Notes under the pieces: model-generated | What the model was told of the DNA's origin: nothing | Database searches by the model: none | Seen by the model: only the letters and a program-made list of their open reading frames with translations | NCBI GenBank assembly: GCA_024710585.1 | Contig: JANJUM010000057.1 | Location: 1-43,213, forward strand | Length of the DNA stretch: 43,213 bases | Origin: Desulforhopalus sp. | GTDB lineage: Bacteria; Desulfobacterota; Desulfobulbia; Desulfobulbales; Desulfocapsaceae | Direction of reading: 5' to 3' | Program-made: the position numbers and the translations under genes | Shown: positions 38,323-41,961 of the stretch, one piece after another | How the letters are laid out: every line of letters starts with the position of its first letter | How positions within the stretch are numbered: position 1 is the first letter of the stretch

Positions 38323-38709
38323 TTAAAAGGTCACCCGCTCCCCCCGCGCCGCCAGGCTGGCGAACTCGCTGCGCCACTCTTCGCCGCCGAGATGGCGGGC
38401 GAGGAGCACGGCGAGGTGCTGCGGCACGATACCGAGGTCGCGGTTGCGGCCAAGACCGGACAGGCAGGAGGGGCAGTTGGTGGCCACTACGGTCGCCTCT
38501 TCGCCAAGCATCGCCCGTTCCAGCGAGTGGCGCTTGCGCCGCCGCATGGCATCGGCGATATCGGGGCGCGACACCGCCAGGGTGCCCGCCTCCGAGCAGC
38601 AGTCGGGCACGGCGGTGACGGCTGTAAAGAGCCGGCCGAGGAGGGCCTTGCCCATGCCGTCGAGGGAGTCGTGGCAGGGGGTGTGATAGAGGACCGTCTC
38701 GCGGCGTTT
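38323..38709 (-). pseudogene. C-terminal remnant of the FAD/Fe-S oxidase after an in-frame stop
   Basis: This stretch continues the reading frame of the larger gene upstream, separated only by one TAA (38712-38710). It encodes 128 residues with the second CCG half: LYHTPCHDSLDG right after the stop, then VPDCCSEAGTLA and ATNCPSCLSGLGR. These cysteine motifs are the family's C-terminal end, so the two parts once formed one protein. The first internal ATG (38655) is past the first motif and has no ribosome site. It is probably not translated alone. Confidence 0.8.
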
Positions 38710-41700
38710 TTACCCGCTCGGCAGGGGGGTGTTATCGAGGACGAACTGCGCCGCGTCGACGATGGGGCAGTCGAAGATCTCGCCGCAGCCCATCTCGTGC
38801 AGGGCCTCGCGACAGGTGCCGCAGCTGACCACGAAGCCGTCGAAGGCGATATGGCCGAGCATCTCGCGGATCTGGCTGAGGATGATGGTGTCGCGCAGGG
38901 CGCTGATCGCCGCCATCTTCTTTCTGGCGTTGACCTTGGCGGGAAAGCCGCAGCACTGGTGCAGCGGGGGGATGATGACGCGGATGCCGCTCTTGACGAG
39001 GCAGTAGATGGCGGCGGCGCCGATGTCTGCGTAGAGGCGCTCCGAGCCGCAGCCGGGAAAGTAGAACACCGTCTTGATCGGCGTCTCCGCCGGGGTGAAC
39101 ATCAGCGCCTCGCGCTCGCTGTAGGGCGGCAGCAGGGCTTCGAGGGACGTCGGCGAAGGCTGCTGCATCGGCGAGGCGAGGGCGTGCAGAAAGCGCCAGC
39201 CTCGCTCGGCGAGCAGCGGCGGCGCCTTGCGATAGGCCTTCGCCGCCACGGCCTGCGCGGCGCTGCCCCACTGCACCACGCCTTTGCGGAAGATGTGGTT
39301 GAAGGTGCGGTTCCTGATCTTCAAATAGTAAAGCGATAAAAGCGTCGCCGGAGCGGTGTGCTTGTAGCCGAGGTCGCAGAGGATCTCGCGCTCGAGCAGC
39401 GACACCTCGGCGGTGTCGATGTCCACCGGGCAGGGCGCCAGGCACTTGCGGCACATGGTGCAGTGGTCGGCGATCTCCTCGAGGTTCTTGAGCTGGTTGA
39501 AGCGCGGCAGGTGCGAGCGCTGCATGTCGTAGAGCAGGGCCTCGATGAGCGAACCGATGACCATGTTCTTGTTGCGCGGGTGGAAGAAGAGGTTGCTGCC
39601 GGGGTGGTAGACGCAGCACACCCCCATGCACTTGCCGCAGCGTATGCATTTGGAGATCATCGCGCTGAGCTTGGCCAGCTCGCCGTACTGGAGGAGCTTC
39701 GCCTCCAGTTCGAGGAGGTTGAAGGAGGGGGTGTAGACCTTGTCGATGATGCCCGGGTCGCTGAGCATCCCCGGGTTCATCACCCCGCGCGGGTCGACTT
39801 CGCGGCGATAGCGGCGCAGTTCATCGAGGCGCTTTTCGTCGAGGAACTTCATCTTGGTGATGCCGATGCCGTGTTCGCCGCTGACCACCCCGCCCAGCTC
39901 CACCGCCTTGGTCATGATGTCCTCGGCGGTTTTCTCGGCGCGCTTCATCATCTCGCGGTCGTTGGAGAAAACCGGGATGTTGACGTGGATGTTGCCGTCA
40001 CCGGCGTGCATGTGGGTGGCGATGACGATGCGCCGCGCCCGCACCCGGGAATGGATGGCCTCGATGTCGCTGCTGACCCTGCTGTAGCCGCTGAGCAGTT
40101 GCAGCAGGTCGGCGAGGAGGTTCCGGATATCGACGCCCTGGCGCACCGCCTCACGGCGGCGCAGTTGCAGCTGGTCGAGGGTGGTGCGGCACAGCTCGTT
40201 GGCCTTGGGGATCTTGGCCTCGAGCCAATCCGGGTCTTCGATGGGCTCGGCGGTCTGCAGGTAGCCGACGATGGCCTCGATGACCTCCATCTTGTTATGG
40301 ATGTCCTCGTCGATATTGCGGGCGTCGACGAAGCGGGCGAACTCGGCCAGGGCGGGCAGCGGCAGGACGATGTCCTCGTTGAGCTTGAAGGCGTTGGTGC
40401 GCGCGGCGATGGCGCCGAGGCGCTTGCGGTCGCGCCAGAAGCGCGCCGCCTCGTCCTCGTCCTGGGCGATGAACAGCTCGGTGTTGCCATAGGGGGCGAG
40501 AAGCGCCACCAGCCGGTCGCGGCCGCGCAACACCTGGGCGCTGCTGTGGCCGACCATGTCGATGAGCAGCACCGCCTTGGGCTGCTCGCTGCGTGCCGCC
40601 TTGAACTTGTACTTGATGGCGCGGATGTACTCCTCGTCGAAGTGCTCCAGGGCCATGAGGGCCTCTTCGCCGTTATTGGCGAAGGCGTCGGAGATCTCGA
40701 CGATGACCCGGCTGGCCTCGTCCATGTCCTCGCCGTAGAACTCGAGGCAGAAGGTCATCTTCTTCTCGTAGGCCTGGTGGAGGACGAAGCGGCCGGAGGT
40801 GATCACCCCGTCGCAGCCCTCTTTCTGGAAGCCGGGCAGGCCGTTGAGGGCCTTGTTGGTGATGTCTTTCCACAGGCCTTTCTTGCGGATCTCGGTGCCG
40901 GCGAGGCGTACCTCGCGCAGCAGGCTGCCATGGCGGTCGAGCACCTCGAAGCGCACCTCGTCGTCGGGGAGGATCTTGCGCATCGGGTGATTGACGCGCC
41001 GTACGGTGAGCAGCCCCTGGCCGGGCATGGCGATGCGGTAGGAGAGGATGTTGTCGATGGCCGTGCCCCAGAGGACGGCGGTCTTGCCGCCGGCGTTCTC
41101 GGCGATGTTGCCGCCAATGGTCGAGGCCCAGGCGCTGGTCGGGTCGGTGGCGAAGACCAGGTTGTGCCGGGTGGCCTGGGCCATGGCGTCACCGGTGACC
41201 ACCCCGGCCTCGACGCGCAGCACCGGCACCTTGGCCCCCTCGCCGAGATGGGCGAAGTCGTCCCAGGCGATGGGGTCGATGCCGGTGAGCTTCTCGGTGT
41301 TGATCATCACGCAGCCGGACTGCACCGGCACGCTGCCGCCGGTCAGCCCGGTGCCGCCACCGCGGGGGATGACCTTCAGCCCCAGCTCGGTGCAGGCTTC
41401 GATGAGCTCGCTGACCTGCTCCTCGCGCTCGGGGCGCAGTACCGCCAGGGGCAGGAAGAGGCGCCAGTCGGTGGCGTCGGTGGCGTGGCTGATCAGGGTG
41501 AAGGGGTCGAAGCGCACGTTGTCGCGGCCGATGATTGGCGCCAGCCGTTTCATCAGCCGCTCGCGCTGGGCCGGGGCGTCGTGGATCTCCTGCTTCAGCT
41601 CGGCCAGGCGACGGCGGCACAGGGCGACGAGGCGCAGCACCTTGGCCCGCCGATCGCCGCCGACGCGGCCAAGGCCTGCCGCCGCCTCGATCACCGACAG

Positions 41701-41961
41701 GTCCTCGGCGGCGGTGGTGAAGAAGCGCTGCCGGCGACGCGTCGAGTCGATCAGCTCCTGGAAGAGAAAGGGGTTGCGGCGGAGGATGAACAGGTCGCCC
41801 ATGAAGCGCATCATCAGACGGGAAGAGCGGCCGGTGATGCGCTGGCTGAGGAGTTCTTCGAGGTCTTCCCAGACCTCGGCGCCGAAGAGCAGGCTGATGA
41901 TCAGTTTATCGTCTGCCGACGTGAAATTGTAGGGGATTTCCCTGTAGGTTGCAGTGCTCAT
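38710..41961 (-). CDS. FAD-linked oxidase with Fe-S and CCG domains (DUF3683 type), truncated
   Basis: A large flavin/iron-sulfur oxidoreductase, likely acting on D-lactate, D-2-hydroxyglutarate or another 2-hydroxyacid and passing electrons to the respiratory chain. Domains in order: an N-terminal DUF3683-like region; the FAD-binding domain with PRGGGTGLTGGSVP (about residue 205); the FAD-oxidase C domain; two Fe-S motifs CIRCGKCMGVC (about 770) and CTMCRKCLAPCP (about 834); and the first CCG half FYFPGCGSE (about 970) with CCGFPAKV. The frame then meets TAA at codon 1084. Intact, it would be about 1212 residues, the usual family length. The ATG at 41961 precedes STATYREIP; no good ribosome site is seen. 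Activity is doubtful if the second CCG half is lost. Confidence 0.85.
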   Translation of the reverse strand: MSTATYREIPYNFTSADDKLIISLLFGAEVWEDLEELLSQRITGRSSRLMMRFMGDLFILRRNPFLFQELIDSTRRRQRFFTTAAEDLSVIEAAAGLGRVGGDRRAKVLRLVALCRRRLAELKQEIHDAPAQRERLMKRLAPIIGRDNVRFDPFTLISHATDATDWRLFLPLAVLRPEREEQVSELIEACTELGLKVIPRGGGTGLTGGSVPVQSGCVMINTEKLTGIDPIAWDDFAHLGEGAKVPVLRVEAGVVTGDAMAQATRHNLVFATDPTSAWASTIGGNIAENAGGKTAVLWGTAIDNILSYRIAMPGQGLLTVRRVNHPMRKILPDDEVRFEVLDRHGSLLREVRLAGTEIRKKGLWKDITNKALNGLPGFQKEGCDGVITSGRFVLHQAYEKKMTFCLEFYGEDMDEASRVIVEISDAFANNGEEALMALEHFDEEYIRAIKYKFKAARSEQPKAVLLIDMVGHSSAQVLRGRDRLVALLAPYGNTELFIAQDEDEAARFWRDRKRLGAIAARTNAFKLNEDIVLPLPALAEFARFVDARNIDEDIHNKMEVIEAIVGYLQTAEPIEDPDWLEAKIPKANELCRTTLDQLQLRRREAVRQGVDIRNLLADLLQLLSGYSRVSSDIEAIHSRVRARRIVIATHMHAGDGNIHVNIPVFSNDREMMKRAEKTAEDIMTKAVELGGVVSGEHGIGITKMKFLDEKRLDELRRYRREVDPRGVMNPGMLSDPGIIDKVYTPSFNLLELEAKLLQYGELAKLSAMISKCIRCGKCMGVCCVYHPGSNLFFHPRNKNMVIGSLIEALLYDMQRSHLPRFNQLKNLEEIADHCTMCRKCLAPCPVDIDTAEVSLLEREILCDLGYKHTAPATLLSLYYLKIRNRTFNHIFRKGVVQWGSAAQAVAAKAYRKAPPLLAERGWRFLHALASPMQQPSPTSLEALLPPYSEREALMFTPAETPIKTVFYFPGCGSERLYADIGAAAIYCLVKSGIRVIIPPLHQCCGFPAKVNARKKMAAISALRDTIILSQIREMLGHIAFDGFVVSCGTCREALHEMGCGEIFDCPIVDAAQFVLDNTPLPSG

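Follow-up and report, generated by a model that had tools for sequence, protein, structure and literature searches.

A lone in-frame TAA in a DUF3683 FAD/Fe-S oxidase gene from a single draft genome

The window analyzed here, a stretch of 43,213 bases that makes up one whole contig of a draft genome (276 contigs, 4.15 Mb, 95.82% complete, 2.04% contamination), contains a gene for an FAD/Fe-S oxidase that is interrupted once by an in-frame stop codon. We are confident that a single codon of an otherwise ordinary, single-copy gene has been replaced by a stop in this one draft genome, through either a recent mutation or an error in the consensus, and that the site is not an established recoding site. 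The minus-strand frame begins with an ATG at 41961 and runs for 1083 codons to a TAA, continues for a further 128 codons, and ends at a second TAA (38325-38323); re-reading of the sequence confirms the position (38712-38710) and codon number (1084) given for the internal stop in a preliminary description. The features of the gene are as follows.

38323-41961, minus strand: DUF3683 FAD/Fe-S oxidase gene, interrupted once (from the open reading frames and 22 open collinear relatives)
38710-38712, minus strand: in-frame TAA (codon 1084), lying within the linker that joins the CCG halves (from the sequence; a variable column in the relatives)
41593-41946, minus strand: DUF3683 domain (PF12447), the sole match in the genome (Pfam)
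41020-41451, minus strand: FAD_binding_4 domain, residues 171-314 (Pfam)
39766-40083, minus strand: best stretch of the FAD-oxidase_C domain, residues 627-732 (Pfam)
39418-39657, minus strand: 4Fe-4S dicluster domain, residues 769-848 (Pfam)
38809-39069, minus strand: first CCG domain, residues 965-1051, retained ahead of the stop (Pfam)
38455-38694, minus strand: second CCG domain, residues 6-85 of the 128 amino acids past the stop (Pfam), with the five invariant cysteines of this part retained

Judged by its domains and by its upstream identity to 22 relatives (62-80%), the gene is a member of the DUF3683 FAD/Fe-S oxidase family by descent, interrupted as it stands. The N-terminal DUF3683 domain scores 116.9 bits against a gathering cut-off of 27, and both of the FAD domains that mark the family are present (86.6 bits for FAD_binding_4 and 125.9 bits for FAD-oxidase_C). 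The 4Fe-4S dicluster domain and the two CCG domains are all there, but they do not share one open frame, as the TAA falls between the CCG domains. The sequence is thus open and homologous on both sides of the stop, as had been proposed, with one CCG domain on each side and the 128 downstream codons matching those of relatives, and it is indeed the second CCG half that is cut off. There is one DUF3683 match in the genome, which makes the gene single-copy and rules out a second full copy; four weak paralogues match its C-terminal half, at 23.7-25.6 bits. Adjoining the oxidase downstream, and convergent with it, is a sodium:solute symporter family gene (PF00474; 36754-38211, plus strand), which is a possible substrate transporter.

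Counting the stop, the interrupted gene has 1212 positions, and the 22 full-length relatives, with their starts set as the last methionine before the YNFTS motif, are 1211-1240 residues long and exactly 1212 in 16 of the 22 cases. Because the codon count matches that of the relatives there is no net insertion or deletion, so that a frameshift or indel at the stop is ruled out and the in-phase substitution of the preliminary description stands. Identity to the relatives is 62-80% in the upstream part and 48-69% over the 128 codons past the stop, which exceeds what chance would give, and since the relatives are collinear with the window the TAA replaces a single codon in the variable linker between the CCG halves. 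Aligning relatives at the TAA had been suggested as a check, and it reveals sense residues in that column, of 12 types among the 22 relatives, eight columns ahead of an invariant Tyr-His. Desulfoprunum benzoelyticum supplies the nearest named homologue (81%), with records titled Desulfobulbaceae and similar coming next; the draft genome itself lies close to Desulfoprunum and other Desulfobulbaceae and is related to sulfate-reducing bacteria.

The stop is private to the window's genome among the relatives examined. All 22 full-length relatives are open from end to end, and in a class-wide search of 257 genomes, 60 of which match at E<=1e-150, the only internal stop is the one TAA in the window's own genome; the remaining 59 have no stop within the match, with four of these matches starting only at residues 197 to 487. 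The matches of 71 among 75 named records extend over the position of the stop, and all 71 are free of stops. When a whole relative serves as the query, a single frame runs through this place in 70 of the 75 loci, including L092, L099 and L100, whose matches start only at residue 153 or 156; L083 also crosses it but shifts frame near residue 792-800, L085 shifts frame near residue 690 with a match that ends ahead of the stop place, and the matches of L081, L087 and L105 likewise end ahead of it. A narrower comparison, using the last 333 residues before the stop and the 128 past it, again places 70 of the 75 loci in one frame, with L081, L085 and L094 giving no downstream match and L087 and L105 no upstream match. 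The sets of 22, 75 and 60 overlap in part (L004 and L033 are examples) and so are not independent of each other. The frame changes inside the oxidase homologues of L083 (titled Desulfobacter postgatei MAG, at about 4346) and L085 (titled Desulfatitalea sp. MAG, at about 4235) lie elsewhere in the gene than the window's stop; these two copies, both from draft genomes, are possibly broken or mis-assembled and count towards a background of lesions or errors.

The sequence beyond the stop shows no sign of decay. Where the 22 relatives are all identical, the window agrees with them in 38 of 38 columns downstream and 419 of 421 upstream, and all 23 invariant cysteines are kept, including the five downstream. 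On a fixed topology the window branch makes up 4.51% of the tree length in the upstream part and 4.42% in the downstream part. In a custom-written codon model, with branch lengths and background values held fixed, making the window branch wholly neutral worsens the fit of the downstream part by 28 lnL units relative to a common omega (-7161.42 vs -7133.20). When a late portion of the branch is allowed to be neutral, its best estimate downstream is zero; fractions of 1.8% and 3.3% cost 1.28 and 2.23 lnL units respectively, so that about 2-3% of the branch is allowed at a drop of 1.92 units, a bound on age that is rough, given the fixed values and the saturation of synonymous sites on the window branch in this short part (the free omega fit ran to infinite time). 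Branch shares, invariant columns and the neutral-time fit thus agree in showing no acceleration of the window branch past the stop. The relaxed constraint behind the lesion that would mark a pseudogene is not seen in these comparisons, and if the gene is a pseudogene it is a very young one. The lack of decay implies either that the stop arose very recently, or that it is an artefact, or, improbably, that it is read through and so does no harm. Upstream of the stop, giving the window branch its own omega (0.097, vs 0.070 elsewhere) improves the fit by 3.65 lnL units, while the neutral-time fit gains only 0.44 units over zero; the whole gene may therefore be slightly relaxed in the window's lineage, and neither a purely recent event nor an error would explain this.

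A recent nonsense mutation and an assembly error were both put forward in the preliminary description, and both are consistent with a stop that is private and has no decay downstream; the sequence alone leaves the two unseparated. That the mutation is real and very recent, and perhaps still segregating, has in our judgement (a weighing rather than a computation) roughly an even chance of being correct. Translation would then terminate at the TAA to yield a protein of 1083 residues that lacks the second CCG motif. With one of its five-cysteine motifs missing, this main product would probably be inactive or impaired, and we infer a loss of function. That the living organism instead has an intact gene, and the stop is not a real feature, is a serious possibility to which, again by judgement and not by calculation, we give somewhat under an even chance. 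The draft state of the assembly, with its 276 contigs and the completeness and contamination given above, favors such an error, as do the absence of decay past the stop, the lack of an internal stop in the other 59 strongly matching genomes of the class, and the presence in this assembly of another conserved gene that is likewise interrupted by one in-frame stop. Weighing against it, a consensus built at high depth seldom contains single wrong bases, and a scan for frameshifts among the matched genes of this genome (described below) yielded no candidate, although it detects only those whose pieces each reach E<=1e-20.

This other gene emerged from a scan in which 126 genes from 746 kb of the window's genome (G000), at least one of them an antisense frame, were matched to 1.48 Mb of a relative (G007), with any stop lying 15 or fewer residues from an alignment end being skipped. 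Six genes with seven stops were flagged, of which two were accepted after inspection, the window oxidase and an NADH:flavin oxidoreductase gene (L136:4461-6485, in G000:C29), presumably 2,4-dienoyl-CoA-reductase-like, that has one in-frame TGA where G007 has a Trp. The others were set aside: in q62, which we take to be HypF, the flagged stop lies upstream of an open 792-aa frame, q177 runs antisense to a frame of 307 aa on the opposite strand, and the stops in q79 and q881 are near gapped alignment ends. A reverse control of G000 frames against G007 (86 genes) gave many flagged stops, seemingly swamped by the antisense frames of a G+C-rich genome, and was left out. This genome thus has a background of lone in-frame stops above zero, and such stops may be real variants or consensus errors.

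The preliminary description also raised an unusual readthrough site, and this suggestion finds no support here. Programmed or leaky readthrough of the TAA would give both a short and a full-length oxidase, and constraint is equally strong in the two halves of the gene, which is what would be expected of an unspoilt half kept in use by readthrough. Predicted folding just past the stop is also weakly unusual (z of -1.93, with nine of 200 shuffles folding at least as well), but this is not convincing as a downstream RNA element. Against readthrough, the stop is not conserved, being present in one of the 60 class genomes, in none of the 22 relatives, and in none of the 71 named records reaching across, and it is situated in a variable linker. 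Moreover, TAA is a normal terminator in this genome: among the 111 matched genes with an end found, in the sampled part of the genome, 22 end in TAA, 26 in TAG and 63 in TGA, and TAA also ends the oxidase gene itself. The base following the internal TAA is an A, a context that is efficient for termination. We therefore regard readthrough as very unlikely, and we give hardly any credence to the more specific proposal that ribosomes in this lineage pass the TAA at codon 1084 often enough to be useful, making one-CCG and two-CCG forms of the oxidase, even though this would explain the fully constrained downstream half.

Equally improbable is that the gene now consists of two cistrons, with the second CCG half made as a separate subunit by re-initiation. 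There is an ATG-started frame downstream (38655-38323, 110 aa), but its ATG falls past the invariant cysteine at +12, in the PCHD motif, and so would make an incomplete CCG motif; no obvious ribosome-binding site precedes this ATG when the sequence is read by eye, and none of the relatives examined in the three sets above is split at this place. On these three grounds we reject it. A change of genetic code is ruled out by the use of all three stop codons to terminate genes in the counts above, and selenocysteine or pyrrolysine insertion is rejected because the codon is TAA, which is not known to encode either amino acid.

A nonsense codon that stands alone in a single draft genome is of little importance in itself, its practical consequence being that the oxidase would be annotated as truncated although its relatives are open. 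The DUF3683 family is of some interest through a role proposed for it in Price et al. 2018 (PMC5764234), where the family is suggested to replace phosphoglycerate dehydrogenase in bacteria without serA, and two DUF3683 proteins that were tested are reported not to have complemented an E. coli serA mutant. The proteins described there, BPHYT_RS03150 of Burkholderia phytofirmans and HSERO_RS19500 of Herbaspirillum seropedicae, are given DUF3683, FAD-binding, FAD-oxidase, 4Fe-4S dicluster and two CCG domains, as in the window gene, a likeness of domain content. They differ in having a C-terminal DUF3400 domain, which Pfam does not report in the window gene, and the window copy for its part carries the in-frame stop.

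The FAD domains of the window oxidase also resemble those of better-known enzymes. They match the GlcD glycolate oxidase subunit (TIGR00387; 1e-59, 202 bits), the solved structures of a glycolate oxidase (9qgz) and a D-lactate dehydrogenase (8jdc), and the D-2-hydroxyglutarate dehydrogenase YdiJ (NF049975), the last at 54 bits, far under its cut-off of 1350 bits; every model reported in the NCBIfam search falls below its curated cut-off. GlcD and the D-lactate dehydrogenases differ from the window protein, which has its FAD and Fe-S parts in one chain together with DUF3683.

The window's genome contains a SerA homologue that is cut by a contig start (429 bits over positions 149-524, with a family cut-off of 454), so that a cell losing the oxidase would not necessarily become a serine auxotroph, and a real loss would presumably be tolerable. 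In a post hoc count across 57 genomes, not corrected for relatedness, a SerA match over the curated cut-off is absent from nine of the 23 genomes with a full-length DUF3683 oxidase vs four of the 34 without (Fisher p 0.024). Removing G000 alone gives eight of 22 vs four of 34 (p 0.045), and removing G000 with its truncated SerA, G028 with its SerA in pieces, and the incomplete G002 and G029 gives seven of 21 vs two of 32 (p 0.021). This side count fits the suggestion that the family takes part in making serine. In G028, a single-contig genome that also has a DUF3683 oxidase, the SerA matches lie in three adjoining pieces (1-232, 225-347 and 343-525, at G028:C1:936498-938073), and its SerA gene may be frameshifted.
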